Source of the DNA: Allobaculum mucilyticum
Lineage (GTDB): Bacteria > Bacillota_I > Bacilli_A > Erysipelotrichales > Erysipelotrichaceae
Assembly (NCBI RefSeq): GCF_022701195.1
Contig: NZ_CP078089.1
Coordinates: 744,001-808,000, forward strand
DNA: 64,000 bases
Direction: 5' to 3'
The position numbers and the translations under genes were made by a program. Shown in pieces: positions 61 to 49,425 of the stretch. Positions within the stretch are counted from its first letter, which is position 1, and every line of letters begins with the position of its first letter. The notes under the pieces were generated by a model. It was not told the DNA's origin and did not search any database. It saw only the letters and a list, made by a program, of their open reading frames with translations.

Positions 61-191
61 ACAGAAAAGCCCGGAGGGCGATTCCGGGCTTTTCTGTATT
101 GGATAATTAGAGAGAAATAGAAAGTAAGAGATAAAAGGAAAAATTATGAAAATTATTATGTATATCAGGAAATCCGCTGCTTGATTTCCTT
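61..191 (-). ncRNA. Candidate small RNA, copy A of a three-copy family
   Basis: Read on the minus strand, a -10 box TATTAT (198-203) with a -35-like TTGGGT 18 bp upstream (222-227) is followed after exactly 8 nt by a perfect hairpin GGAAATC/GATTTCC (168-189). A U/C-rich linker follows, then a perfect 14-bp stem (61-74 with 84-97) whose loop reads AATCGCCCT. The G/C core of that stem is followed by TTTT, as in an intrinsic terminator. Copies at 2482-2695 and 3265-3355 share the order and spacing. No convincing reading frame explains it. The transcript ends are inferred, and function is unknown. Confidence 0.5.
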
Positions 192-254
192 GATTCCATA
201 ATATGATGCGTCAGACAAAATACCCAATTTTGCTGACGGCAGATTTGGTGTTCA

Positions 255-1952
255 TCAATAGTGAACACAAACAAAAGCTAAATTGAGTTCAATATGTGAA
301 ATTGGGGCATATTTCACATACATAGCTTGAATCAGCGAAGATACAAGAAGATCCAATGCCTGTTTGGCATCTTCTTGTGCGTATTTCAGCACTCGTCTTA
401 CGTTTATTGCCGTAATAGCTAACGTATATCCGAATTTTTTGCGCACTAACCCCCTGAACGGAAGGGTATCAATTTTTTGATTCCTTCTTAGCTGGTTTGG
501 GATAGCTTCAACACCGTTTCTGAACCGGTAATTGGCAATTGCCTCTTCACTTTTCATGGTCCGCTGAAGGTGTGCTCTTTGGATCTTCTTCTGGGAAATG
601 GTTCCAGATCTGACTCTTTTGTGATTTTTCATCGGGCATCGGCCAGTTGCAGCGAATGGGCAATCTTTACAGGTTGTTTCTTTGTGGAATGAGATATTCC
701 AGGAATCGGTTTTCTCGTAGTAGGTTACTCGATCTGCAGTCTTTCCGTTTGGGCAGGTTACCGTTTTTGTTTCTTCATCGATTTCGAAATCAGCAGTCAA
801 ATCGGGTGTTTCTTTACCCGTCATAGCAGTTCCTACAAGTTGAATTCCGTGTTCAGCTGCTTCATTGATGTTATCCACGCTGATGTAGGCTCCGTCGGCA
901 ACCAAAGTTGTTTCGTCTCCTTCTTCAGCCATCTTCTGAATTTCATCTTTGGCGAACTTGGAATCGCTGTAGATATTGGGCTGGAAATCAAATGAGTCGA
1001 TGATCTTTCGGTTGGTATCGAGGTCGACTGTTTCAGCGAAATTGCCAACGTATCCCTGGTGATTTTCACCGGCCTTCTTACGGAAAGTCGATTCCGGCTC
1101 AACTGGATTGTTCAGGACAGTCGAGTTCAGCTCTTTTCCGTCACGAACGGAATGAAAAGAGCCATCGGTGTTTGTGTTGACCTGCTCGGAAACAAAGCGG
1201 ATGAGCATCTGTGCTTCTTCACAGTCATTCAGCGTGCCTGGAATCAGATCACGAACGGCACAGGCATCCTGAAAAGCGGTCTGCAGTTTAGCCGCAGCCG
1301 GAGTATGGGAGTGATAAGTAACCTTATTCTCATCGAAGTCCTCGATATAGTGTTGAAGATTCTCGGGGATTGCGATTTTGTTTTCATCCAAAACCATGAG
1401 CATGTTTTTAATGACCACATGCGCCAGCTGCAGTCTTGAAAGCTTTCTGGCGCCGTTATCGACCATGATGGAGTCCATTCTCCGCTTGAGATTGGTGCCA
1501 AGATAGGCGTCTTTAAGAGACTTGGCCAGTTTTTCGGCAAATTCATGGAGAAGATCGATGCCAGTCTGCTGCATATAAAAGGCATTGGCAGCACGAAAGC
1601 GGTTAAGCGTTCTCTGGTTTACCGGCTGATGTTCAAAGGACGTTGTTCCAAGAGCGAACTGATACTCCAGAGAAAAGGTAACGCTTCTCTCCAGTTCTTC
1701 GTCTGTCAGAGTAAACAGATCTTTCAAAACAAGCATAGCTAAAACGAGGTATGTAGGAGTTGAAGGTCTGGTGTTGGTGTTCTTTGAGTAAAGAGGCTCA
1801 AAAATCGATTCAAGTTTAACCAGCTCAGGAATAATGACACGGTTGAAATAGCCCGGCCAGCCGGATTCAAGCATTCTGAGCTTTCGATCAGAAAGTGAGT
1901 AGGTTAGATCGAAGAGATTCATCTGAATGGGTTTGAACTTGGACTGCGACAT
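255..1952 (-). CDS. IS1182-family transposase
   Basis: A 565-residue DDE transposase of the IS1182 type. The N-terminal third has the family's 'PVNQRTLNRFR' region. The catalytic core shows 'HQGYVGNFAETVD' and 'LVADGAYIS', a cysteine cluster (CKDCPF...CPMK) lies near residue 430, and the end 'KKFGYTLAITAINVRRVLKYA' is typical. I chose ATG at 1952, because GGGGGTG lies 8 nt upstream; an in-frame TTG at 1976 has no such site. TATAAT-like boxes lie in the A/T-rich stretch just upstream. A hairpin (248-254 with 262-268) straddles the stop codon. The frame looks intact. I could not find convincing terminal inverted repeats or a target duplication, so the element's limits are left open. Confidence 0.85.
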   Translation of the reverse strand: MSQSKFKPIQMNLFDLTYSLSDRKLRMLESGWPGYFNRVIIPELVKLESIFEPLYSKNTNTRPSTPTYLVLAMLVLKDLFTLTDEELERSVTFSLEYQFALGTTSFEHQPVNQRTLNRFRAANAFYMQQTGIDLLHEFAEKLAKSLKDAYLGTNLKRRMDSIMVDNGARKLSRLQLAHVVIKNMLMVLDENKIAIPENLQHYIEDFDENKVTYHSHTPAAAKLQTAFQDACAVRDLIPGTLNDCEEAQMLIRFVSEQVNTNTDGSFHSVRDGKELNSTVLNNPVEPESTFRKKAGENHQGYVGNFAETVDLDTNRKIIDSFDFQPNIYSDSKFAKDEIQKMAEEGDETTLVADGAYISVDNINEAAEHGIQLVGTAMTGKETPDLTADFEIDEETKTVTCPNGKTADRVTYYEKTDSWNISFHKETTCKDCPFAATGRCPMKNHKRVRSGTISQKKIQRAHLQRTMKSEEAIANYRFRNGVEAIPNQLRRNQKIDTLPFRGLVRKKFGYTLAITAINVRRVLKYAQEDAKQALDLLVSSLIQAMYVKYAPISHIELNLAFVCVHY

Positions 1953-2481
1953 AAGAAACACCCCCGAAATATTCAATTATATTATACTACTAATATTAAT
2001 TTAATCGAGATTAATTTCAATTAATTGTAGCATTATTTTGAAAAATTCGGATCAGTCCAAGATCTATGAACACACTTCAGCTATTTGTTACTTTTGTCGG
2101 GCGCATCATAATATACGTCTTTAAAAAAATCCCGCTTCAGTTGCCTGCTTTTTTTCATAACCCTTCGATACCCATCGGGCATTCACATGAATGCGCTCTC
2201 AGGCAGACGATCCGGCTCCGTGCAGAAATGAGCGTCCGGCTTGCAAATTACTCTGGGTCCTGTATCTGAGCAGGAACCGGTGCTGAAGTCTGTCTTCAAT
2301 CTGCTGTTCAGGTGCTTGCAAAGCGAATTTTGGTCAGGCAGTCTATCCTCTGATTTTGATGTCTGCCTCTGGTATTAACCCGTCTTCTTTTCCAATCTGC
2401 AGCATCCGGATCCAGCCTTGCAGGCGTAACTTCCCTTCTTCCCGGTTCATTCTTTTCTCCTCCTGCCGCTCTGGGAGACAT

Positions 2482-2511
2482 AAAAAAGGATCCGGCTGGC
2501 GGACCGGATCC
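2482..2511 (-). terminator. Intrinsic terminator (end of candidate RNA B)
   Basis: A perfect 8-bp stem GGATCCGG/CCGGATCC (2488-2495 with 2504-2511) is followed on the minus strand by six T's (2482-2487). No protein-coding gene lies upstream on this strand, so it must terminate a non-coding transcript or stop read-through. Confidence 0.7.
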
Positions 2512-2695
2512 AGAATGATAGCGGTTCTCTGATCTGAACGGGGACGGGCAATCCCCGGGCACTTCAGATTCAGGAACACAGTGGGCAGTGCAGAGGGCGA
2601 GTCCGCATCTGCCAAAGAGATAAGAGAAAATTAAGAGAAAAAAGAAAGGAAAAAATGATTATGAATTTTGGGGAAATCTGCTGCTTGATTTCCTT
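2482..2695 (-). ncRNA. Candidate small RNA, copy B (extended)
   Basis: On the minus strand a -10 box TATTCT (2702-2707) stands 8 nt before the hairpin GGAAATC/GATTTCC (672-693 of the 2-kb block, i.e. 2672-2693), exactly as in copies A and C. The linker is pyrimidine-rich. The second hairpin (2584-2613) has a different stem from the other copies but the same loop core CTCGCCCT. Unlike the others it has no T-run there. A further long hairpin follows (around 2525-2575), then a perfect terminator at 2482-2511. The -35 is poor. The 3' end is therefore taken at the terminator, but a shorter RNA is possible. Confidence 0.42.
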
Positions 2696-3264
2696 GGCTA
2701 TAGAATAGCAGTTTCAGCGCAGAGCGGCGTTATAACGCTCATATTTCTTTATCTTTCCTTTATTCCTATATGACATTTCTTCATACGTTCTTGATTCGAT
2801 TTTTATACCGGAAGCGCCGGAAGCACTGGAAGCGTTTCCGGTTTTTCCATGCAGAGAAGGATCTGTTTACTTGCGTTATGACTGGATCAGCAGCTCCTGC
2901 CAGTTCGCTTCTTTTCAGAAAATCCCGCTCTGAATCTTCATCAATTTTAAGCTGGTCTTACTGTGTCGCATTCTTTTTCCTGGCTGCTGGTTTGCCCGTG
3001 ATCAGGCATCCGTTTTTTTGTCTGCAGGCGGCTAAACGGACACCGGAAAATATTGCATTTCTGTCGAAAAGCACATCGATACGCAAAAGCGATTTACCAT
3101 ATTCTTTCTCTGTTTATACAGGAATATCATCTGTTCCTTTGAATATTCTGATCAATATTCCGATCTGCTCCCGCAGGAAAGACAGCCATCTGGATTCACA
3201 CTTTCTGACCAGACTGGGACGCTTTGACCTGGAATCATCCGGTAAGCTCGATTCCGTTTTTCAG

Positions 3265-3355
3265 GCAGAAAAAAGTCCGGAGGGCGAGAGCCGGACTTTT
3301 CAAAAGAGAAAAAAGAAAGGAAATTGTATTCAGGAAATCTGCTGCTGATTTCCAT
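3265..3355 (-). ncRNA. Candidate small RNA, copy C (compact)
   Basis: This is the clearest copy. On the minus strand ATGACA (3385-3390), 17 bp, and TAGTAT (3362-3367) form a good promoter. After 8 nt comes the hairpin GGAAATC/GATTTCC (3333-3353), then a U/C-rich linker. It ends in a perfect 10-bp stem (3271-3280 with 3291-3300) with loop CTCTCGCCCT, followed by six T's (3269-3274). The predicted RNA is about 90 nt. The C-rich loop resembles the exposed motifs of Firmicute small RNAs that pair with Shine-Dalgarno regions (LhrC and RsaE type), but that function is a guess. Confidence 0.55.
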
Positions 3356-3481
3356 GGCTGTATACTACATCTCCGCATGGGCTTTGTCATGCAGAAACAC
3401 CCGACATCTTTATAATTTATTAATTGTAGCGCTTTCAGGCTTTATGCTATCTGAATATAGCGTTTACATTTTCTTAACGAT

Positions 3482-3535: not shown

Positions 3536-4504
3536 TTATGCCTTAGGCAGAGTGGGGTGCACATAGCCGATCAGCGGCGATGCGCAGTTAACGGAGAAGA
3601 TCTCTGTAGTCCATCCGTTCCATCCGCCGTGAACAGCCTGTCCGTTGCCGATGTAGATGGCAACGTGACCGGAATAGACAACAATGTCACCGGGAACCGG
3701 ATTGTCTGTCATGGGGCCAAGAGAGAGATAGCTCTCCGGTGCGCCATGGAAATCGATTCCGACTGCTTTAAGCGAATTGGTAACAAGCATCGTGCAGTCC
3801 TGTGCTACGCCTACCTGGGCTTTGGCAGCAGCTGCGATTTTATCGTAGCCGCTCAGGTCTTCTTTGCCTTTTCCGTTTTCATCGAAGATGTAGTTGTTCT
3901 TCTTTACGCTGACTTCCTTCTGTCCCTGCGCATCGAAGCTGTACATCGTTCCATCGACGGTTTCCATGCGGTTCTGAATGACTGCACCGTTTCTATCGAG
4001 GCAGTATTCCTGACCTTCAAAGGTGACCCATCCAGCGCCCTGTACGAGACCATTCTCGTCAAGGATGTAGGTCTTGCCGTCTTTTTCAATTTTCTGCTCG
4101 CTGTCTGCGCGCAGGCCGGTCTGTTCGTCATACCAGGCCGTTCCGTTTTCTTCTTTGACAAAGCCAGTCATGCGCTGACCGGATTCATCAAAACGGTAGC
4201 TGCCGTCTTTTGTTTCAAGCACGCCGGAAGCCGGAGCGCCGAACTGGTCAAAGTAGACGGTCTTTCCATTGATCGTATTTTCGCCTGTCTTTTTATAGGC
4301 GGTCTGTCCATTTTCGTTTTTCAGGGTGGCCTGGTTCCGGTCGATTCCGTGAATGAAATTCGTATTCGGTTCAATCGCAGAGATTTTTGTCTGTGCATTC
4401 ACGCTGCTTTCGCGTGCAAGAACCGTGCTGACCGGACTGCCAGCCGCAATCATGAGGGCTACCGCAACTGCCATTGCGGACTTCGTGATTTTCAGATTCA
4501 TCAT
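3536..4504 (-). CDS. Secreted NlpC/P60 peptidase with glucan/choline-binding-like repeats
   Basis: A 322-residue secreted cell-wall hydrolase. Residues 1-30 form a signal peptide ending VLA. Residues about 65-215 hold short aromatic repeats of the 'GKTVYFDQFGAPASG' kind, like choline- or glucan-binding modules. Residues about 220-322 are an NlpC/P60 domain that probably cuts peptidoglycan stem peptides. The nucleophile Cys237 is in 'QDCTML', the general base His280 in 'SGHVAIYIG', and His292 follows. Two ATGs overlap (4504 and 4501); the ribosome site AAGGAGG sits better for the second. A candidate promoter TTGTTT-17-TATTCC lies upstream on the minus strand. It is a single-gene unit bounded by terminators. 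Confidence 0.85.
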   Translation of the reverse strand: MMNLKITKSAMAVAVALMIAAGSPVSTVLARESSVNAQTKISAIEPNTNFIHGIDRNQATLKNENGQTAYKKTGENTINGKTVYFDQFGAPASGVLETKDGSYRFDESGQRMTGFVKEENGTAWYDEQTGLRADSEQKIEKDGKTYILDENGLVQGAGWVTFEGQEYCLDRNGAVIQNRMETVDGTMYSFDAQGQKEVSVKKNNYIFDENGKGKEDLSGYDKIAAAAKAQVGVAQDCTMLVTNSLKAVGIDFHGAPESYLSLGPMTDNPVPGDIVVYSGHVAIYIGNGQAVHGGWNGWTTEIFSVNCASPLIGYVHPTLPKA

Positions 4505-8329: not shown

Positions 8330-10594
8330 TCAGCAGCGGCCTTCTGCAGTCTTAAAAGAAGACATTTTTGCGAAGGGGTGAATCAGATGGCTGAACGCTC
8401 TTTGCATGCTGGATTCTGCAGATACTCTCGAAACAGCAGCTGCATTTACATCTGCAGGAGCAGAGACAATGTCTGCTTTCTCGATTTCAGGAGCAGCAGA
8501 AGCATCTGCTTTTTTAGCATTTTTGGGATCCAGAACACGCGGCCAGCCTTTTGTGGTTTTTGCAATGAATTTATTGCAGAAGAGAAGCAGGCTTGGAAGA
8601 ACGGTCAGAATGACGATGACACTGATCAGAGCGCCGCGGCCAAGCAGGGTGCACAGAGATTTGATCAGGTCCATCTTTGCGATCAGGCTGACGCCCGAGC
8701 ATGCGGCAAAGAAGGAAAGACCGCTGGTCATAATCGAAGGCATGGTCTGCGTAATCGCAATGCGGATAGCTTCTGTAGCGTTCCTGCCTTTGGAAAGTTC
8801 TTCCTTGAACCGGGATGTCATCAGAATTGCGTAGTCGATGCAGGCACCAAGCTGGATGGTACCGATGACGATGCCGGCAATAAACGGCAGAGCGGTATGG
8901 GTCAGATATGGAATGCCCATATTGACGAAGATGGCGAACTCGATGCACAGAACCAGAAGCAGAGGCAGCGAGAACGATTTAAAGGTAATCGCAATAATAA
9001 TGAGGATGGCCAGGATGGAAACGAGGTTGACCATCTTGAAGTCGATGTCGGTAACTTTGATCAGATCCTTGGTCATGTTGCCTTCACCGGCAATCAGGAC
9101 ATCCGGATCGTATTTGGAAGCAATCGCATACAGATCATCGATCTGATTGTTCAGCTCGTCTGTAGCGGAACGGTAGGACGTATTGACCAGAATCAGCTTG
9201 CGTTCGCCGGCCTCAAGAATATCGGAGATGGCTTTCGGTTCGAGTTCAGCCGGAATCATCGGTCCGACAAATTTTTCGTAAGCGATGACACTTGTGATGC
9301 CATCGAGGTTTTCCATTTCATCAATCATCTGCTCGGTTTTCGAGGCAGACAGAGAATCATCGACCATGATGAAGTGCGAAGTTGTCATGTCGAATTTGTC
9401 TTTCAGTTCATTGGTTCCCTGCACGCTTGGCAGCTCGTCCGGAAGCGATGCAGCCAGGTCGTAATACTGTGCGGTATGTGCGTTGCAGTAAACGGCTGGC
9501 AGGAACAGGAGGGCAAAGACAACCAGAATGGCTTTATGATGCCGTACGACCCAGTCCGCAAATTTCGGGAACGGACGAATCAGAACCGGGTGCGTCCATT
9601 TTTCGATCCATGGGTCGAAGAACATCAGCAGAGCCGGCAGAATCAGAATGGTACACAGAACGGCGAACAGAACACCTTTCGCCATGACAATGCCGATATC
9701 CCGTCCAAGGGTCAGCTGCATGACGAGCAGAGCCAGGAAGCCGGCGATTGTCGTAATGGACGAACTTGTAATGGATGTCCATGTCGCGTGAATAGCGCGG
9801 GCCATCGCGTCTTCCTTGGAATCGCCCTGGTTTTTCTCTTCCTGATAGCGGTGCAGCAGGAAGATGGAATAGTCCATGGAAACCGCAAGCAGAAGAATCA
9901 TGCTCAGTGCTTTGGTTACGTAGGAAATCTCTCCCAGGAAAATATTGGTACCCATGTTATAGGCAATTGGATAAATCATGCCGACAATGAAGATCAGCGG
10001 CGCGATCCATGACTTCAGTCCAAGCGAGAGGACCAGCAGAACAAGCAGAACCGCTATGCCGGTGTAGATCGGCGTCTCTCGGTCGATCATCGCTTTAGTA
10101 TCCGCTGTAATCGCGGAGAATCCGGCGACGTGCGCGTTGTCGCTGCAGATCTTCTTGATCTGTTCAATCGCGTTCATCGTAGAATCGCTTGCGGCAGCTT
10201 CTTTAAACGTGACGATGATCATCGTCGCGTTGTCCGCATACAGCGCATCTCTCAGTTGGGTCGGGAGTGCGTCTTTAGGAATGGAAAGATCGGCAATATC
10301 GCTTCTCCAGAGCGTCTTGTCGACGCCTGGAATCTGCGCGATTTCTTTCTCGAGCTTTTCTACTTCCTTGTCCGGCGTATCATCGACAACAACCATTGCC
10401 GTGCCGGCCAGATTAAAACCATTTCCCAGATGGTCCTGTGCCACGATGGATGGCGAATCCTTCGGCAGGTAGGTCAGAATATCGTAGTTGACCCGGGTAT
10501 TGAAGTACCCGATGATCGAAGGAATCAGAAGAATCGTTGCAATCAGCAGGATCATATTTCGGTGCTTTACAATAAACTTTGAACATTTTTCCAT
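8330..10594 (-). CDS. RND/MMPL-family transporter
   Basis: A 754-residue membrane protein of the MMPL/RND superfamily. It starts with one span (about residues 12-30), then an extracellular loop ('YLPKDSPSIVAQDHLGNGF'), five spans, a second copy of this plan with its own loop ('AASLPDELPSVQGTNELKDKF'), five more spans, and a soluble tail from about 690. Acidic residues in the spans ('VSMDYSIFLLHRYQEE', 'GACIDYAILMTSRFKEE') fit proton-coupled export of lipids or amphiphiles. It is the first gene of an operon with the heptad-repeat protein and is divergent from tetR. The TTGACC -35 of its promoter lies inside a perfect TetR-type palindrome, so it is very probably repressed by the neighbouring regulator. 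Confidence 0.88.
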   Translation of the reverse strand: MEKCSKFIVKHRNMILLIATILLIPSIIGYFNTRVNYDILTYLPKDSPSIVAQDHLGNGFNLAGTAMVVVDDTPDKEVEKLEKEIAQIPGVDKTLWRSDIADLSIPKDALPTQLRDALYADNATMIIVTFKEAAASDSTMNAIEQIKKICSDNAHVAGFSAITADTKAMIDRETPIYTGIAVLLVLLVLSLGLKSWIAPLIFIVGMIYPIAYNMGTNIFLGEISYVTKALSMILLLAVSMDYSIFLLHRYQEEKNQGDSKEDAMARAIHATWTSITSSSITTIAGFLALLVMQLTLGRDIGIVMAKGVLFAVLCTILILPALLMFFDPWIEKWTHPVLIRPFPKFADWVVRHHKAILVVFALLFLPAVYCNAHTAQYYDLAASLPDELPSVQGTNELKDKFDMTTSHFIMVDDSLSASKTEQMIDEMENLDGITSVIAYEKFVGPMIPAELEPKAISDILEAGERKLILVNTSYRSATDELNNQIDDLYAIASKYDPDVLIAGEGNMTKDLIKVTDIDFKMVNLVSILAILIIIAITFKSFSLPLLLVLCIEFAIFVNMGIPYLTHTALPFIAGIVIGTIQLGACIDYAILMTSRFKEELSKGRNATEAIRIAITQTMPSIMTSGLSFFAACSGVSLIAKMDLIKSLCTLLGRGALISVIVILTVLPSLLLFCNKFIAKTTKGWPRVLDPKNAKKADASAAPEIEKADIVSAPADVNAAAVSRVSAESSMQRAFSHLIHPFAKMSSFKTAEGRC

Positions 10595-11590: not shown

Positions 11591-11721
11591 GTCTTTTTTC
11601 TTAGCAGAACATATCGGTTATTTGTTTGTAATATTCGGTTTTTCGGGAATATCAGGTTGTTTTATAACTCAAATCGTGCGGCCGCTTCGCGGCCCGTTAA
11701 GTGACGGAAAGGAAAAATCTT

Positions 11722-13041
11722 ATGCCCTCACTTAACACATTCTGCAACCTGCAGTCGGCTGCTCTCAAGCGCTTCATCAAAGAAGAAGCATCCAATTCTG
11801 ACAATCTGCTCCACCCGGATTCTGACTTCTCTCGCTCCCGCAGGCTTTCCGCTGTCGATCTGGCAGCCGTGGCCTACCAGACGGAAGATCGCTCGATCAA
11901 CCGATCTCTTCCCATTCTTCCTGATTCTCTGTCCGACGTTTCTTTATCTGCCATTTCCCAGGGCAGACAGAAAATCAGGTTCTTGCTTTACTCTCACGTC
12001 TTCTATCGCATGAACGATTTGTTCTCTTCGGAGGATGACAAAACGTTTCATGGATGGCGACTATTGAGCGTCGACGGTTCTGAACTATCAGTCAGCCCCG
12101 ATGGGAATGACATGTCTACCTATGGCGGATCGAAAAAGGGATCCAAGCACCATTTTTACCTTGCGAATCCGCTGTATGACGTGCTCAACCATGTTTATCT
12201 CGATCTGGTGATGCAGCCAGGTTCTCAGAAGAACGAGGACTCAGCTTTTCTGGAGCTGGCTCAGCGATACGAAGGAGAAAAGGCGATCTTCATTTGCGAC
12301 AGAGGCTATGAAGCGCTTATGACTTTCTATCGTCTGAATCAGACCGATAAGCATTTCGTCATCCGAATCAAGGACGAATCTTCCTCTACCAGTATTCTGA
12401 AGCACTATCCAACACCAGATACTGAAGAATATGACATTCCATTCGATGTGACTTTGACGTGTAAAAACAACTCCCATGTCAAGGCAAACTGGGAAACCTA
12501 CAAATACATCTCGTCCTATTCAAAACATCCGGAATTCCAGAATGGAGTGACTGAACTGCCGCTCCACGGCAGAGTCGTACGCTATAAAACGGTCTGCGAA
12601 GGGATTGAGTCTTTCATCACACTTTTTACCAACCTGCCGTTTGATGAATTCACCACCGAGGATCTCTGTGAAATCTACCGACTCCGCTGGCAAATTGAGC
12701 TCTCGTATCGAGATATCAAAGAGCGGATTGGACTGAAGGATGTGCATGGACGCAAGAAGGAACTGGTCATTGGAGAAGTCTTCGCGAAAATGACGCTCTA
12801 CAACCTGTATTCCCGGATCAGAAACAAGGTTGAAAACAGTCAGGAATTCGCTGAACGCTGCCGAAATGCCATGAAGAGGAAGTGGGAACAGAAGGCAGAT
12901 TACGCATTTCTGATCACTGCGGTTCACGCGTTTCTATGGGACAGCGGAGTTTATACCGCAGACAAGCTGATCAATTTGATCCTTCATAAGACGCAGTCCG
13001 TTCGTCCAGGGCGAGCGGATAAGCGCAAAAAGAAGCGCTGA
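11722..13041 (+). CDS. IS4-family transposase (type a, copy 1)
   Basis: A 439-residue DDE transposase. The first aspartate is in 'LLSVDGSEL', the second in 'IFICDRGYEALM', and the IS4 signature Y-2-R-3-E-6-K reads 'YRLRWQIELSYRDIK'. I start it at ATG 11722, with GGAAAGG 9 nt upstream. A GTG at 11701 would add seven residues but has no ribosome site. A G/C-rich hairpin with a TTC loop covers the bases just before the ribosome site. The C-terminus is basic (GRADKRKKKR). Confidence 0.92.
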   Translation: MPSLNTFCNLQSAALKRFIKEEASNSDNLLHPDSDFSRSRRLSAVDLAAVAYQTEDRSINRSLPILPDSLSDVSLSAISQGRQKIRFLLYSHVFYRMNDLFSSEDDKTFHGWRLLSVDGSELSVSPDGNDMSTYGGSKKGSKHHFYLANPLYDVLNHVYLDLVMQPGSQKNEDSAFLELAQRYEGEKAIFICDRGYEALMTFYRLNQTDKHFVIRIKDESSSTSILKHYPTPDTEEYDIPFDVTLTCKNNSHVKANWETYKYISSYSKHPEFQNGVTELPLHGRVVRYKTVCEGIESFITLFTNLPFDEFTTEDLCEIYRLRWQIELSYRDIKERIGLKDVHGRKKELVIGEVFAKMTLYNLYSRIRNKVENSQEFAERCRNAMKRKWEQKADYAFLITAVHAFLWDSGVYTADKLINLILHKTQSVRPGRADKRKKKR

Positions 13042-15303: not shown

Positions 15304-15828
15304 TTACCGGCGCAGGGAATACCAGCCGACGCCTTCGTATTTCCAGCCCAGTCGCAGAAGCGCATTGGCTTCCTGCACGCTGCCCGTATAATGGTGCGAT
15401 GCGGTTACTGCATTGGGATTATACAGACGGTAAATCGGATCACCGTCTGCTTCTTTGACTGGTGTCCAGCCAAGATCCGGCGACGCCCAGCCTACGCCTT
15501 CGTATTTCCAGCCCAGGGAAATCAGGACGTTTTTCTCGTTTTCATCCATCGTGTAATGGTGATCGCCTGCATTGGGATTGTACATCCGGTATACATACCA
15601 GCCTTCCTCCGGAGCATCCCAGGCTTTTCCTTCATTGCGCCATCCCAGGCTGATCAGAGAATAGACTTCATTGGCTCGCGGAGTAAACAGATGTTCCCCT
15701 GTGTTTGGATTGTACAGACGGTACAGGGTATAGCTTCCTCCTGCTGCCTGCAGCGGAAGAACAGTCATACCTGTACAGAGCGCCGTGCTTAACAGCATCG
15801 TACAGGCCGTTTCTCTCAGTTTTTTCAT
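15304..15828 (-). CDS. Secreted protein with three 'GEHFYT' repeats
   Basis: A 174-residue secreted protein made almost only of three ~47-residue repeats after a signal peptide (about residues 1-28, ending LQA). Each repeat begins 'LYRLYNPNxGEHLFT' or 'YRMYNPNAGDHHYT' and ends 'LGWKYEGVGW', the repeat known as DUF5648. In this window the same module is attached to a GH25 lysozyme and to two larger paralogues, so it probably binds a wall or surface glycan; the ligand is unknown. ATG at 15828 is chosen because GGAG lies 8 nt upstream; frames further up lack a ribosome site. Confidence 0.8.
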   Translation of the reverse strand: MKKLRETACTMLLSTALCTGMTVLPLQAAGGSYTLYRLYNPNTGEHLFTPRANEVYSLISLGWRNEGKAWDAPEEGWYVYRMYNPNAGDHHYTMDENEKNVLISLGWKYEGVGWASPDLGWTPVKEADGDPIYRLYNPNAVTASHHYTGSVQEANALLRLGWKYEGVGWYSLRR

Positions 15829-15985
15829 AATCATTTCTCCGTTCTCTTTCTTCCCTTCTGCCGCTCTTTTCCTTTTTCCTGCAGCCGGAAAAAGAAGCAC
15901 AGCAAAGATCAGAAAATCTTTCCTGTTTAAAAATATAACCGGGAAACAGATGCTAAACAACCGCAACCGGATACGCTGGTGATTC

Positions 15986-21695: not shown

Positions 21696-23006
21696 TCACT
21701 TCTTCTTTCTGGTATCAGCTCTTCCTTCTCTGATCGGAGATATCCTGGCCAGAAGAAGATCTTCCAGTGTACTCAAGCTGATTCTGGCTTTTTTGAACAG
21801 CCACTGTTGAATCGTTTTGATGATGAATCCGAAATCTGCCTTCTGCTTGTGCTTTTTGGCCTGAGCGATGCGCTTCTGGTGCTGACGAGATCTTTCTACC
21901 TTGTTGCGCAAACGGGAACAAAGATTGTAGAGAGTCATTTTGGCATAGATCTCTGCCTGGACCAGATCAAGCTTCCTTGAATGAGTCCATTCAAGATCGG
22001 TGTTTCGTTTCAGTCCCCTGAAGCCGACTTCAACCTGCCAGCGCAGACGGTAGATCTGCTTGATGTCCTCGGTCCCAAACTCAGCTTCCGACAGATTGGT
22101 GCAGACGGTAATGAATGATTCATTCCCTTCGCAGGCAGCTTTGAACCTCACAACCCTGATATTTAAAGGGAGTTCAGTCGTTTGACCGTCAAATTCAGGC
22201 TGCTTCCTGTACGAAGAGATGTACTTATAGACATCCCAATGGTCTTTGACATGCCTGTTGTTTTTACTGGTCAGAATCACATTGAAAGGAATGTCATACT
22301 CTTCTGACTCGGGAGTCTTATAGTACTTGAGAATGCTTGTAGATGATGTCTCGTCTTTGATACGTATGACAAAAGGGACATGTTCCTTCTGCAGGCGATA
22401 GAAAGACATAAGAGCTTCGTATCCCCGATCAGCGATGAAGATGGCTTTCTGAAATGAAGAACGCTGAGCGAGTTCAAGAAGAGCTGAATCTTCATTCTTC
22501 TCAGAGCCGGGTTGAAGCAGCGCGTCAGTAAAGACGGAGTTGAGGGCGTCGAATTCGGCATTCAAATGAACAAAGTGCCTCTTCTTGCCTTTTTTAGAAG
22601 CGCCATAGGTGATGTCATTGTCCTGTTCAGGAAGAACTTGAATCTCGCTTCCATCTACAGCGAGGAGGCGATAACCCTTGAAGGTTTTAACATCAGAGCT
22701 GGAAGTTGCCTTGTTAAACCGATTGAAGACGTTTTTATAAAGTGAAGAGTTGATTTTGGAACGGGCCTGAGACACAGCAGAGGCTGAAACAGATGATCCG
22801 CCCTTAAACAGGATCCAGGGAAAGGAAGCAGCGAGGGATTCCTCTGTCAGCTGAAACGGAAGAAGGACAAGCTCATGCAGGTCAATCTGCCGCTTACGGG
22901 TGAAGGCGGACTGAGAAGTAAAATTGGCAGGGTTCGCCGTTTCTGAGCTGATGATATTGAGGAAGGTGTTTCTGAAGAAAGAACATTCTTTGGCGATAGC
23001 AGTCAT
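21696..23006 (-). CDS. IS4-family transposase (type b, intact)
   Basis: A 436-residue DDE transposase with 'LLAVDGSEI', 'IFIADRGYEALM' and the signature 'YRLRWQVEVGFRGLK'. The ATG at 23006 has AAAGGAG 8 nt upstream. The C-terminus 'ISPIREGRADTRKKK' matches the type a ending 'QSVRPGRADKRKKKR', which shows this copy is full-length, in contrast to the frameshifted copy at 45710-46996. Confidence 0.92.
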   Translation of the reverse strand: MTAIAKECSFFRNTFLNIISSETANPANFTSQSAFTRKRQIDLHELVLLPFQLTEESLAASFPWILFKGGSSVSASAVSQARSKINSSLYKNVFNRFNKATSSSDVKTFKGYRLLAVDGSEIQVLPEQDNDITYGASKKGKKRHFVHLNAEFDALNSVFTDALLQPGSEKNEDSALLELAQRSSFQKAIFIADRGYEALMSFYRLQKEHVPFVIRIKDETSSTSILKYYKTPESEEYDIPFNVILTSKNNRHVKDHWDVYKYISSYRKQPEFDGQTTELPLNIRVVRFKAACEGNESFITVCTNLSEAEFGTEDIKQIYRLRWQVEVGFRGLKRNTDLEWTHSRKLDLVQAEIYAKMTLYNLCSRLRNKVERSRQHQKRIAQAKKHKQKADFGFIIKTIQQWLFKKARISLSTLEDLLLARISPIREGRADTRKKK

Positions 23007-41208: not shown

Positions 41209-42348
41209 TCAGTAGTTTTCAAGAGGTGTGACTTTGAGTACTGAAGGTTTAGACAGACGGTCAGATGCCTTTCTGAACTCGCTTGCGCTGATCCGTCTTG
41301 AATCTCCCGGAAAGCCGCTTCCAGTTGTGTTGGTGTAGTAATAGACATTTCTGAAACTGTTATCCGGCTGGGAGAAAAAATATTCATCCCACGTATAACC
41401 GGCTCCCGGTCTGTTGAGGTGAAAGCGACCGATATAACTGCTGGCCGCGCCTCCCGACCCTGCGTACATAAACTGATTGCCTCCAAGATAGAGGTTTGTG
41501 CTTCTGGTATAGCTGTACAGTACAAACACTGGTTTGTGAGCACTCGCTGTGAACAGCTGGAGAAGATTGCCGCCTGAAGTACAAATAGCCAGTTCGGGAA
41601 TACCATCGCCGTTCATGTCTGTCAGCGAATAATAAAGCGGGCTTTTGTACATCCTCATCTCATCAATCCCGATATCGCTGTTGGACGGTGTTCCGCCTTG
41701 CACACCATAATCACTTGTTGTTGACTTACCTTTCAAAACGTCTCTGGCATGATCGACGCATGGCTGATAAACCTTTTTATACGCCTCTTCACGGGAAATT
41801 CCCTGACCGGCAACCGTTCCATACCAGCCGATATTCTCATCACGCCATCCGTTGGCAATCAGATAATTCTTTTCATTCGCAGAAGTTGTGTAATTGTGGG
41901 CTCCTGCTCTGGCATTTGGATTGTACTGACGGTACAGAGGTACAGTTTCATTTTCGTCGGAGTACCAGCAGACGCCTTCATCTTTCCAGCCAACTGATTT
42001 CAGGTGATCTCGCTCTTTTGCATTCATTGTGTAGTGGTGATCGCCGGCATTCGGGTTATACAGGCGATAGACCGGAACGGATGATCTTTCCGGCGCATAC
42101 CATCCGGTGCCTTCATATTCCCAGCCCAGATCATACAGATGATCGCGTTCGCTGGCATTTGCGGTATAGAAATGTTCCCCGCTGTTCATGTTGTACATCC
42201 GGTACAGTGCAATCGAACCGCCTGTATCAATCTCTTCCATCTCTGCTTCATTTGCATCATTGGCAAAAACCGGACAGGTGAAGACTGTACTGCCAAGCGC
42301 TGCGCAAAGCAGTGCCGCATTTACTGTTTTCCAGCTTTTCTTTTTCAT
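41209..42348 (-). CDS. Secreted GEHFYT-repeat protein, paralogue 2
   Basis: A 379-residue secreted protein with the same plan as its neighbour: signal peptide (about 1-30, ending VFA), three repeats ('LYRMYNMNSGEHFYT', 'VYRLYNPNAGDHHYT', 'LYRQYNPNARAGAHNYT'), and the C-terminal domain with 'SLTDMNGDGIPELAICTSG'. The repeats are nearly identical between the two, while the ends have drifted, a sign of tandem duplication with different surface specificities. ATG 42348 has GAGGAAGAG just upstream. Confidence 0.8.
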   Translation of the reverse strand: MKKKSWKTVNAALLCAALGSTVFTCPVFANDANEAEMEEIDTGGSIALYRMYNMNSGEHFYTANASERDHLYDLGWEYEGTGWYAPERSSVPVYRLYNPNAGDHHYTMNAKERDHLKSVGWKDEGVCWYSDENETVPLYRQYNPNARAGAHNYTTSANEKNYLIANGWRDENIGWYGTVAGQGISREEAYKKVYQPCVDHARDVLKGKSTTSDYGVQGGTPSNSDIGIDEMRMYKSPLYYSLTDMNGDGIPELAICTSGGNLLQLFTASAHKPVFVLYSYTRSTNLYLGGNQFMYAGSGGAASSYIGRFHLNRPGAGYTWDEYFFSQPDNSFRNVYYYTNTTGSGFPGDSRRISASEFRKASDRLSKPSVLKVTPLENY

Positions 42349-42610
42349 ATCTCTTCCTCTTTTCTCTTTGCGGAAACATTCCATGCCAGTCTTTGTCCGC
42401 TGTTTCTGGCATGGCGATAAAAGTGAGAGCTATGTCCTGTCAGCCAGCTCTGGGCATCTGCAGCAATGCTCTCCGTACTGATTTCACTATACGGGAAGGA
42501 AAAAGAAGAACTTCCAGGGGGAGTAAAAAGTGTCCAAAATAGCGTCTGTATTCGCCGTTTCTGGTTTCCCATCCGGGTTCTGCAAAGATCAGCCAGAAAA
42601 AGAAGATGCA
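42349..42610. other. Intergenic region upstream of paralogue 2
   Basis: It contains the promoter region of paralogue 2 (a minus-strand TATAGT near 42488 is a candidate -10). No gene was recognised. Confidence 0.4.
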
Positions 42611-45138: not shown

Positions 45139-45340
45139 AAAAAAACTGCGGTATCCGCAGTCAAAAAGATGAATGTAAAGATAACACCTCTTCGACCGAA
45201 GGAGTATGACGGGTATTTCCCGGCATCCCAGAAGCAGAACCTGCCGGTCCTGTTTCTTCGGCGGTGATTGCCTTTCCCTTCCTTCGTCGAATGCCTTCTC
45301 TGAAAGGTACTGATCTGCACCGCTGCCTCTATCTTATTTC
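45139..45340 (-). promoter_or_regulatory. Lysine riboswitch with terminator
   Basis: On the minus strand the leader shows the lysine-riboswitch core in order: AAGATAGAGG at the 5' side, CAGTA, GGGAAAGGCAATC...GCCGAAG, CTGGGA..., TACCCGTCATACTC, and GTTATCTT closing P1 (45178-45184 pairs with 45330-45335). It is followed by a perfect 7-bp terminator ACTGCGG/CCGCAGT with six T's (45139-45161), 36 nt before the SBP start. This arrangement switches transcription off when lysine is abundant. Confidence 0.88.
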
Positions 45341-45709: not shown

Positions 45710-46996
45710 TCAGCTCTTCCTTCTCTGATCGGAGATATCCTGGCCAGAAGAAGATCTTCCAGTGTACTCAAGCTGATTCTGGCTTTTGAACAGCCACTGT
45801 TGAATCGTTTTGATGATGAATCCGAAATCTGCCTTCTGCTTGTGCTTTTTGGCCTGAGCGATGCGCTTCTGGTGCTGACGAGATCTTTCTACCTTGTTGC
45901 GCAAACGGGAACAAAGATTGTAGAGAGTCATTTTGGCATAGATCTCTGCCTGGACCAGATCAAGCTTCCTTGAATGAGTCCATTCAAGATCGGTGTTTCG
46001 TTTCAGTCCCCTGAAGCCGACTTCAACCTGCCAGCGCAGACGGTAGATCTGCTTGATGTCCTCGGTCCCAAACTCAGCTTCCGACAGATTGGTGCAGACG
46101 GTAATGAATGATTCATTCCCTTCGCAGGCAGCTTTGAACCTCACAACCCTGATATTTAAAGGGAGTTCAGTCGTTTGACCGTCAAATTCAGGCTGCTTCC
46201 TGTACGAAGAGATGTACTTATAGACATCCCAATGGTCTTTGACATGCCTGTTGTTTTTACTGGTCAGAATCACATTGAAAGGAATGTCATACTCTTCTGA
46301 CTCGGGAGTCTTATAGTACTTGAGAATGCTTGTAGATGATGTCTCGTCTTTGATACGTATGACAAAAGGGACATGTTCCTTCTGCAGGCGATAGAAAGAC
46401 ATAAGAGCTTCGTATCCCCGATCAGCGATGAAGATGGCTTTCTGAAATGAAGAACGCTGAGCGAGTTCAAGAAGAGCTGAATCTTCATTCTTCTCAGAGC
46501 CGGGTTGAAGCAGCGCGTCAGTAAAGACGGAGTTGAGGGCGTCGAATTCGGCATTCAAATGAACAAAGTGCCTCTTCTTGCCTTTTTTAGCGCCATAGGT
46601 GATGTCATTGTCCTGTTCAGGAAGAACTTGAATCTCGCTTCCATCTACAGCGAGGAGGCGATAACCCTTGAAGGTTTTAACATCAGAGCTGGAAGTTGCC
46701 TTGTTAAACCGATTGAAGACGTTTTTATAAAGTGAAGAGTTGATTTTGGAACGGGCCTGAGACACAGCAGAGGCTGAAACAGATGATCCGCCCTTAAACA
46801 GGATCCAGGGAAAGGAAGCAGCGAGGGATTCCTCTGTCAGCTGAAACGGAAGAAGGACAAGCTCATGCAGGTCAATCTGCCGCTTACGGGTGAAGGCGGA
46901 CTGAGAAGTAAAATTGGCAGGGTTCGCCGTTTCTGAGCTGATGATATTGAGGAAGGTGTTTCTGAAGAAAGAACATTCTTTGGCGATAGCAGTCAT
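45710..46996 (-). pseudogene. IS4-family transposase, type b, C-terminal frameshift
   Basis: Through residue about 407 it matches the intact 436-residue copy, apart from a single-residue deletion in 'YGASKKGKKR' (here 'YGAKKGKKR'). A run of six A's in the coding strand is reduced to four, which shifts the frame after 'QQWLF'. The protein now ends 'KSQNQLEYTGRSSSGQDISDQRRKS' in place of the conserved basic tail, here 428 residues. All catalytic residues remain, so activity is uncertain. The intact copy elsewhere in the window could act on it in trans. Confidence 0.8.
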
Positions 46997-47301: not shown

Positions 47302-49008
47302 CTAGCGTTCGAGCATCTGTACTTTCCGGAAGGTCGGACGCATCTTCCGGTTCGTTTTGCCCAGCGTTTTAAAGGCGCTGACCTGCTCGTTTACATCAAA
47401 GAATCTGGCTTCTGGCTGATCGTCTTTTTCCTCATCTGAGGATTCTTCAGAAGAAGAATCTGACGTGTTTTCGGACGATGTGTCTTCCGGGCTGTCCGCT
47501 GTATCTGAACTGTCTGAGGACTCTTCACTGTCGGGATCAGAGGGTTTGTCCGGCAGAGTCGGCTCTTCACTTGAAGAGTCTTCAGAGTCGGAAGGTTTCT
47601 GCGAATCGGACGGCTTTTCAGAGTCAGATGGCTTTTCTGAATCATCCGGTTTATCCGGTTCTACAGGCGTCCCTGTGCCTTCGATGTCGCCATACCAGGC
47701 AACGCCCTCAAGGCTCCAGCCGTTCTCGCCCAGGAATTCCCACTCGCTTTTATCTGAGGTGAAGTGGTGCGCACCGGACTGTGCATTCGGGTTATAGGCA
47801 CGGTAAACCGGCTGCGCTTTTTTCACGTCGGAATACCAGCCGACACCTTCATAAGTCCAGCCAACACGGACGAGTTCATCCTTCTCGTTTTCATCAAGGG
47901 TGTAGTGGTGATCACCGGCATTCGGATTGTAGAGACGGTAAACAGGATAGCCGTTTTTGACATAGTTCCAGGCGGTACCTTCATAATCCCAGCCGTGCGA
48001 AGAAAGGTATTTGCTTTCAGTGTTGTCAGATGTGTAGAAATGCTCGCCGGAATTCGGGTTGTACAGTCGGTGCATGACTTTGTTTGTCGCACCGGGCTGG
48101 CACAGCTTTTTCCAGTCGTCTTTCGTTCCGAAGAACTTGTTCAGATCCAGTCTGCCCTCATAGCCTTCAAGTTTTCCGTTGGACGAATACTGGTGCATGT
48201 AATACTGACGGAATGCGCCCGTTCCCAGACTGTCTGTCCAGGTCCGTTTAGCATAGCCCTGAAGTTCAGGGTTCTTTCCGTAGTTGGCAATCCAGAGCGG
48301 GCAGCCCTGTTTTGCGACTTCAGTCCAGTCGAGCGCACGGGCAAAGTAGCTGCTCGTATAAATCATGATCGTCACGCCGGACAGATTGTAATAGGCCTGG
48401 ACAAACCGGAGCGCCCATTCAGTTCCGTTTTTGAGCAGTTCCGGATCTTCATAATCCAGGATTGGAATGCCTTCTCCAAGATACGGGTAAGTCTGTTTAT
48501 AGAACCAGTACGCTTCTTTTTCCGGGGTGCTTTCGTAGCCTTTATCATTCGCATAGTGATAGAAGCCAAACAGTCTTCCCGAAGAAAGAACTTCCTTTGC
48601 ATAGCGGTCAAAAGATTTATCTTTGAAGCCGTCTCCGCCTGTCGCCTTGCAGATTACGAAATCCGCGTCAATCTGGCTTAAGTCGATTCCGGCTTGCCAG
48701 TTGGAAATATCAATGCCGTCAAGCTCTGTATTGCTTTTGCGGCGGTTATCCGTTGCACCATCGGGAATATCATCATCGACTGCAGCTGTAATGATTCCCG
48801 TCTCGGTCGCCCATTCGGTTTCTGCACTTTCATCAATCGCCGGTACGTCTTCTTCGATCCGTTCAGCATTCGGATCTTCAAACGGTACGCCATCTTCTGC
48901 AAGTACAGAGGTAACCGGCAGCAGAGTAAGACTCAGCGAGCAGGCAGTGAGCAGTGCAGCAGCTTTGCGAAACCCCTGGCGGGATCGTCTGTTGTCTGAT
49001 TTGCGCAT
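47302..49008 (-). CDS. Secreted GH25 lysozyme with GEHFYT repeats
   Basis: A 568-residue secreted muramidase. The signal peptide covers about 1-38. A GH25 domain (about 95-310) has 'DGIDISNWQAGIDL' and the acid pair in 'PILDYEDPE' (near 185-187), plus 'TIMIYTSSYFA' and 'PLWIANYG'. Three GEHFYT repeats follow (about 318-455: 'LYNPNSGEHFYT', 'YRLYNPNAGDHHYT', 'YNPNAQSGAHHFT'). A tail of Ser/Asp/Pro/Glu repeats ('SEKPSDSEKPSDSQKPSD') and a conserved-looking ~45-residue end complete it. It would cut the peptidoglycan glycan chain, with the repeats as probable wall-binding modules. ATG 49008 with AAAGGAG upstream is clear. Confidence 0.9.
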   Translation of the reverse strand: MRKSDNRRSRQGFRKAAALLTACSLSLTLLPVTSVLAEDGVPFEDPNAERIEEDVPAIDESAETEWATETGIITAAVDDDIPDGATDNRRKSNTELDGIDISNWQAGIDLSQIDADFVICKATGGDGFKDKSFDRYAKEVLSSGRLFGFYHYANDKGYESTPEKEAYWFYKQTYPYLGEGIPILDYEDPELLKNGTEWALRFVQAYYNLSGVTIMIYTSSYFARALDWTEVAKQGCPLWIANYGKNPELQGYAKRTWTDSLGTGAFRQYYMHQYSSNGKLEGYEGRLDLNKFFGTKDDWKKLCQPGATNKVMHRLYNPNSGEHFYTSDNTESKYLSSHGWDYEGTAWNYVKNGYPVYRLYNPNAGDHHYTLDENEKDELVRVGWTYEGVGWYSDVKKAQPVYRAYNPNAQSGAHHFTSDKSEWEFLGENGWSLEGVAWYGDIEGTGTPVEPDKPDDSEKPSDSEKPSDSQKPSDSEDSSSEEPTLPDKPSDPDSEESSDSSDTADSPEDTSSENTSDSSSEESSDEEKDDQPEARFFDVNEQVSAFKTLGKTNRKMRPTFRKVQMLER

Positions 49009-49425
49009 GAGATTCTCCTTTCTCTTCTCTATTTTTCTGTATCTGTTTTTCAGTTTTATGAGTGCCATCCAGCATGACGGCTGTTCGCATTTTCTCTTCC
49101 AGGAGACTCTGTCCTCACAGTGAATTTGCATGTGAACTCTCCCGCGAACGCTCTGGAATCTGTATAGACAGTCCCGTCCGTATCAGGCTTTAGAAACAGT
49201 CGTCAGTTTTAAAACTGGCAGCAGCAGATTTTATTCTAACAAAATCAGACTCTCTGATCAGTCAGGCCGGAAGAATCCGCACAGATCACACAGTTTTCTG
49301 ATGCTCTTTTTCCTCTTCTGCCGCATTTTCAGCAAAAAAATGAAACAGTAAATACCGATAAACAGATATATGTAACGAGATAATAAAAAATCTGAAACCG
49401 ATAACATCCACGACAACGCAGACAC
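49009..49425. other. Intergenic region upstream of the GH25 gene
   Basis: It holds the leader and promoter region of the GH25 gene. A minus-strand AATAAAAT near 49235 is the best -10-like sequence, without a clear -35. It is A/T-rich toward 49380. No gene or known RNA was seen. Confidence 0.4.

Follow-up and report, generated by a model that had tools for sequence, protein, structure and literature searches.

The stretch of DNA analysed here, referred to below as the window, comprises 64,000 nucleotides of Allobaculum mucilyticum (contig NZ_CP078089.1, positions 744,001 to 808,000), and carries near its start three related units, copies A, B and C, which we describe as candidate small RNA (sRNA) genes. 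An initial annotation, made from the letters alone, had placed them on the minus strand at 61-203, 2482-2707 and 3265-3390, and all three were found there. They share the order −10 hexamer, 8 nt, GGAAATC, A(1–2)GCAGC[AG], GATTTCC, pyrimidine-rich linker and second hairpin with TCGCCC. The pattern GGAAATCN{0,4}AGCAGCNGATTTCC matched three times in the window, against none in 100 shuffles, and a near-identical hairpin pattern has three matches in the whole genome (3,144,153 bases). A covariance model, R1, built from 11 sequences and covering promoter, hairpin and linker, was searched against this genome up to E 10, with 150 of the 4,848 candidates from the first look scored, and retrieved just copies A, B and C.

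With regard to their parts, all on the minus strand, copy C (3265..3355, about 85-90 nt) has its −10 box TAGTAT at 3362..3367, its 5' hairpin at 3333-3353, a linker at 3304..3323 predicted to act against ribosome-binding sites, and a terminator hairpin at about 3270-3301 with a CTCTCGCCCT loop; the terminator and the ATGACA 17 bp from the −10 box had both been described before and were recovered. In copy B (2482..2695, about 206-212 nt), TGC directly precedes the −10 box TATTCT (2702..2707), forming an extended −10, and the 5' hairpin lies at 2672-2693. Two CAT triplets, possible anti-start codons, stand before the linker TTTCCTTTCTTTTTTCTCTT (2633..2652), which is identical to that of copy C and likewise a predicted antagonist of ribosome-binding sites; a UCGCCC hairpin at 2584-2613 has no T run after it, and the predicted terminator, with a CCGCCA loop, lies at 2488-2511. 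Copy A (61..191, about 129-131 nt) consists of a 5' hairpin (168-189), a CU-rich linker (about 110-147) with 6 mismatches to the common 20-mer, and a second hairpin at 61-97 with an ATCGCCC loop, beyond which a further terminator-like hairpin occurs at 29-54. Its −10 box TATTAT (198..203) lies within a 7-bp direct repeat of an insertion sequence (IS), and the TTGGGT reported at 18 bp, its apparent −35, is present, but inside the IS end. Each −10 box stands at exactly 8 nt, as originally reported, and hairpin 1 is a perfect 7-bp stem in all three copies. The TCGCCCT assigned to the second-hairpin loop is there in every copy, but its last T lies in the stem in A and B.

The family extends to other genomes of the genus. 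Among five genus genomes, the copies number three in A. mucilyticum itself (G000), three in Allobaculum sp. Allo2 (G001), two in Erysipelotrichaceae bacterium RD49 (G002), five in the metagenome-assembled genome S17M_St_31 (G003) and none in G004, a genome 67% complete. The covariance-model search of related genomes suggested in the initial annotation was run with R1; among 272 genomes of the family it matched 5, as it did among 315 of the order, the one added from outside the genus being Ileibacterium valens (G042); the filters of these scans were strict, and some weak matches were lost. At 20 loci surrounding NlpC/P60 matches, from other genera and in some cases from the same genus, matches appeared at E 2.8-4.7 only. 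A pattern scan of named genomes returned 13 stretches, four of them family members; the nine others, devoid of the 5' half-stem, were taken as chance, as was a single viral match.

Several features are retained throughout the genus, in keeping with the expectation that homologues should keep −10 box, spacing and loop. In each of the 13 genus copies, GG is preceded at exactly 8 nt by TANNNT, a hexamer pattern met at 0.72% of random positions. Among 98 perfect 7-bp hairpins with loops of 7-10 nt in the window, counted on both strands so that palindromes enter twice, five have TANNNT at exactly this distance where about 0.7 would be expected, namely copies A, B and C, copy A again when read on the plus strand, and an unrelated hairpin. 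TG occupies the extended −10 place in 8 of the 13 genus copies, and a good −35 is missing from most. The loop of the second hairpin carries C[GA]CC in all 12 genus copies that have such a hairpin, and the motif recurs in the distal terminator of copy B; the middle Allo2 copy has lost its 3' half and lies beside a transposase-like gene. The stems of the second hairpin diverge between copies, yet all fold, as judged from single folds because MAFFT set the stems out of register in the terminator alignment. A script found 46 terminator-like hairpins in the window: the loop motif is present in copy C and in the copy B terminator and absent from 43, and the copy A hairpin was caught on the plus strand only. 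The full MAFFT alignment had displaced hairpin 1, so that RNAalifold missed it, and the sequences were realigned with the −10 included. Judged by sequence, this conserved multicopy family of candidate small RNAs is real.

The linker gives the most direct indication of a function. Eight of 14 copies share the 20-nt sequence TTTCCTTTCTTTTTTCTCTT exactly and two more differ from it by one mismatch; its complement, AAGAGAAAAAAGAAAGGAAA, has the look of a strong ribosome-binding region. Outside the array of copies, the exact complement (20/20) occurs at two sites only in the A. mucilyticum genome, both in the sense orientation in gene leaders: one 7 nt before argJ, the other 28 nt before a gene for a phosphotransferase system (PTS) IIBCA protein that passes the NCBIfam cut-off for sucrose-specific IIBC. 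At the PTS start, GGAAATC directly precedes the start codon, a possible pairing partner for the 3' arm of hairpin 1. To control for purine richness, a search was made for R11-GAAAGGAAA, which has five sites genome-wide: two in the array, those at argJ and the PTS gene, and one located 5 nt ahead of the gene for a YgjK-like glucosidase that appears to carry a signal peptide. Since 2,048 prefixes are possible, two exact repeats among three sites are unlikely to arise by chance; for A-rich prefixes, the chance is, by a rough estimate, about 1 in 10,000.

Predicted pairing energies point in the same direction. The linker duplexes reach −26.2 and −26.0 kcal/mol with the two exact leaders and −21.6 kcal/mol with the glucosidase leader, against a best value of −21.4 among 42 window leaders, whose start codons were picked by script. 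Of 200 shuffled linkers, 196 pair less well with the window leaders than the real linker does, and the mean duplex energy of the real linker is −10.1 with leaders versus −6.1 with coding sequence. On co-folding with the argJ and PTS leaders, respectively, copy C gives interaction energies of −25.3 and −30.0 and copy B −27.7 and −35.7, while copy A is weaker (−14.4 and −18.3). In RD49, a site with two mismatches lies 10 nt before a gene for a GPH sugar symporter. With values of −20 to −21, three genes for DUF5648 proteins, one with a GH25 domain (15307-15966, 41212-42384 and 47305-49131, minus strand), have the best-pairing leaders of the window.

A second shared feature lies upstream. A motif search over 14 upstream sequences (the eight copies of G000–G002, two of the five from G003, the Ileibacterium copy and three units of a neighbouring type, D, described below) found in 11 of them an 18-nt A-rich/GC element lying 42–46 bp upstream of where the −10 stands, with a log-likelihood of 60.0 against at most 53.8 in eight shuffled sets; at width 12, the values were 39.8 and at most 34.8, with fewer sites in register. 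The element lies at 2734..2751 in copy B (TAAAGAAATATGAGCGTT) and at 3396..3413 in copy C (ATAAAGATGTCGGGTGTT), both on the minus strand, and the sequences without it were copy A at its present site and both G003 copies. It is likely that the shared element is an activator site. Other window matches to it revealed no regulon.

At copy A, this arrangement has been interrupted. An IS element (205..2107, minus strand), presumably IS1182-like, with a transposase open reading frame at 255-1976 (DDE_Tnp_1_6 and DUF772), sits at the −10 of copy A, and its 7-bp direct repeats, ATAATAT at 198-204 and 2108-2114, contain the −10 box. The IS cuts copy A off from its likely original upstream element, now beyond it at 2140..2157 (minus strand). 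When the flanks of the IS are joined, copy A regains the element at −44 with a score of 10.3, the matrix having been built without copy A; scores of at least 10 occur at 21 of 127,964 window positions.

We consider it probable that the three copies are paralogues encoding RNAs that act in trans against ribosome-binding sites, working like the csRNAs and LhrC. The sequence itself shows the copies and their conservation, the promoter spacing, the conserved loops and the exact leader complements; transcription, pairing in the cell, repression and an activator we infer. Each copy would be transcribed from its own −10 promoter, with an activator bound in many of them to the upstream element about 44 bp before the −10. 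Transcription would start just before the GGAAATC hairpin, which may protect the 5' end, and the terminator would end the RNA. The unpaired CU-rich linker UUUCCUUUCUUUUUUCUCUU would then pair with purine-rich ribosome-binding regions (AAGAGAAAAAAGAAAGGAAA) and block translation, the C-rich terminator loop offering a second possible contact.

A number of observations weigh against this interpretation. Hairpin 1 shows no covariation: in 11 aligned genus sequences, 77 of 77 cells are paired with no changes, all seven pairs being invariant, and as the hairpin never varies, covariation neither supports nor denies its pairing. The linker of copy A and of all three Allo2 copies has 4–6 mismatches in ungapped comparison. 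Outside the genus, a homologue does exist in Ileibacterium, but there the distance from −10 to hairpin is 7 nt and the loop, GGCAGCAA, lacks the C[GA]CC motif. With regard to targets, the PTS site, at 28 nt from the start, may not be the ribosome-binding site itself, and the argJ leaders of G001, G002 and G004 lack the 20-mer, that of G003 having three mismatches. When up to three mismatches are allowed, the A. mucilyticum genome holds 19 matches (two in the array), not far above the 10 of the reversed control. A start codon with a long frame lies within 25 nt at 9 of 20 non-array loci inspected (0-3 mismatches, five genus genomes), a proportion that any pattern resembling a ribosome-binding site might give, and G004, which yielded no sRNA, accounts for three of these nine. 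The leaders of the flanking genes are not predicted targets, the NlpC/P60 neighbour giving a duplex of −9.0 kcal/mol. Finally, the upstream element is wanting in both G003 copies tested, and with the IS in place copy A has a site at −33 that scores 9.4; the insertion may therefore have brought in a replacement element as well.

Among other explanations, the RNAs may be real and act mainly as binding partners of a protein or of some other RNA (sponges would be one example), bound at hairpin 1 and its GCAGC loop, the match between linker and ribosome-binding sites then following from pyrimidine richness. Hairpin 1 is indeed the most conserved part and is invariant beyond what pairing needs, GCAGC is found again in two adjoining type D RNAs and in the Ileibacterium terminator loop, and the 4-6 linker mismatches affect 4 of 14 copies; however, two exact leader matches fall where the genome has just three non-array purine-run sites, and the terminator loop is conserved separately, and we regard this explanation as unlikely. 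The invariance of the arms within the genus and their fixed place relative to the −10 could alternatively denote a DNA operator, the GGAAATC palindrome at +1 to +22 of the promoters, with the transcripts as by-products. Here, the loop length spans a 3-nt range while the arms remain fixed, and the Ileibacterium change, which breaks the DNA palindrome, leaves a G·U pair in the RNA stem; these two features favour an RNA hairpin over a DNA site, and since linker and terminator loop are conserved too, an operator seems very unlikely.

Two further readings concern the origin and the setting of the copies. That they are a small repeat, or an element resembling a miniature inverted-repeat transposable element, copied in place and lacking regulatory function, would agree with several copies per genome and with the IS elements in or beside the array in A. 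mucilyticum and Allo2. The copies nevertheless occupy one locus (one G003 copy being 5.5 kb off), none having been found elsewhere, and their promoter spacing and terminator loop have been retained where spacers and stems have diverged, which makes this reading hardly credible. Leader or attenuator RNAs of downstream genes are the least plausible of all: hairpins and terminators do resemble attenuators, but the next feature after each window copy is another copy or the IS, and each copy has its own terminator-like hairpin. Trans-acting RNAs directed against ribosome-binding sites remain our preferred reading.

The comparison with known systems bears on how new this family is. Rfam 15, applied to the whole window at gathering threshold, had no match on the copies and returned a lysine riboswitch only (45174-45339, minus strand); at the five array loci, with E up to 5, the copies had only two sub-threshold overlaps, Thr_leader (0.15) and OrzO-P (1.7), both far below gathering. 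Literature searches on small RNAs in these bacteria, which were not a full survey, found nothing relevant; PMC11109978 mentions Erysipelotrichaceae, for another motif. The belief that no described family has such a layout has therefore held: the family seems undescribed, as far as literature and Rfam searches reach, although its probable working principle is one that other bacteria are known to use.

The csRNAs of Streptococcus, which are CiaR-controlled, resemble the present family closely in plan (PMC3091779). There too, a genome holds several similar copies, every one equipped with a promoter and a terminator of its own, and they consist mostly of two stem-loops with, between them, an unpaired and highly similar stretch complementary to Shine-Dalgarno sequences (PMC3091779), an arrangement that predicted folds and duplex energies also suggest here; one csRNA gene is likewise truncated by an insertion sequence (PMC3091779). 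The differences are that the sequences are unrelated, that the copies here are clustered, and that CAU, a potential anti-start triplet, stands before the linker in 4 of 14 copies compared with 53 of 61 csRNAs (PMC3091779). The CiaR repeat TTTAAG-N5-TTTAAG is absent from the 100 nt upstream of the 14 copies, the best candidate having 3 mismatches in 12 at about −70, in the wrong place, and the pattern scan of named genomes, the only search that covered streptococcal genomes, found no family member there.

C-rich sites aimed at Shine-Dalgarno sequences are a feature of RoxS. LhrC of Listeria had been named, for comparison by architecture only, as an example of multicopy small RNAs with C-rich loops; it shares the plan, but the csRNAs are as close, and although the loops are conserved, the CU-rich linker is the strongest functional clue. 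LhrC1-5 are likewise multicopy, and LhrC binds a region upstream of the lapB start codon; it differs in having three UCCC motifs, in loop A, a single strand and the terminator loop (PMC4132741). Here, UCCC occurs in 2 of 14 copies (in copy B and in a stem of one Allo2 copy), never as an LhrC-style triad. RsaE, FsrA, SprD and RNAIII, listed as UCCC-motif RNAs in PMC4132741, also aim C-rich sites at Shine-Dalgarno sequences, and are set apart here, as is RoxS, by the absence of an Rfam match on the copies. Given no CiaR repeat, no UCCC triad and no Rfam match, the copies belong, by the tests made here, to neither the csRNAs nor LhrC, though plan and probable action agree.

If the proposal is right, Erysipelotrichaceae, which are gut commensals, possess a clearly delimited multicopy family of regulatory RNAs in which the csRNA/LhrC strategy is realised with unrelated sequence; the IS in copy A would constitute a natural promoter experiment, and the named candidate targets make the proposal directly testable. 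A bolder version, which we consider doubtful, would see an array of RNAs that mimic the 16S rRNA tail and, through 20 nt of antisense matching selected strong leaders perfectly, act as a dedicated switch controlling the uptake of sugars and the breakdown of glycans outside the cell, under one activator from which the IS has cut copy A off. Its targets would be the sucrose PTS, the YgjK-like glucosidase and, in RD49, the GPH sugar symporter, and its activator site would be common to most copies and the neighbouring type D RNA. The likeness to the 16S rRNA 3' tail concerns UUUCCUUUCU, and UCACC beside GAUCACCUCCUUUCU.

The genomic place of the array is itself partly conserved. A gene encoding a choline-binding repeat and an NlpC/P60 domain (3536..4504, minus strand) adjoins the copies, as it does in Allo2, G003 and Ileibacterium. 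In A. mucilyticum, Allo2 and Ileibacterium, the copies lie between this gene and a second gene, on a single strand throughout, and the Ileibacterium flanking genes are each 44% identical to their A. mucilyticum counterparts. In RD49, the copies adjoin the second gene, the contig ending about 0.9 kb beyond; in G003, the NlpC/P60 gene is the point on which four copies converge, and the fifth lies 5.5 kb off, near what, from reading and with no family search, appear to be a LacI regulator gene and a PTS operon. The second gene is weakly amidase-like; its assignment as an amidase was rejected, as Amidase_3 scored 15.5, 22.7 and 14.2 bits in three species versus a cut-off of 27, and it had no match among solved structures. 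The Allo2 version (L015) is matched as two separate pieces, one of them interrupted by a stop. At two other-genus loci, among six flanks read, an asparaginyl-tRNA-synthetase-like gene, so named from the G003 homologue and from reading, stands directly before the second gene, with no array.

Additional RNA-like units accompany the array. Types D and E (L004:9652-9765 and 9867-9973, minus strand) lie outside the window, between copy A and the second gene, and follow the plan of the sRNA copies; type D is also present in Allo2, RD49 and Ileibacterium, and type E has look-alikes in Allo2 and RD49. Strong matches of a type D model are confined to its four training genomes; of the 272 genomes, 30 others gave weak ones, with per-genome E values of 3.5e-4 to 0.05, which were set aside as near chance. 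A skipping-rope RNA (RF02924) lies inside the Allo2 array (L015:10415-10497, minus strand), and G003 has a T-box-like leader (L017:4498-4722, minus strand) scoring below gathering. Elsewhere in the window, an open reading frame at 11701-13041 (plus strand) reads, no family search having been made, like a transposase, and two other genes (21698-23006 and 45712-46996, minus strand) have an identical leader, which together suggests multicopy IS elements.

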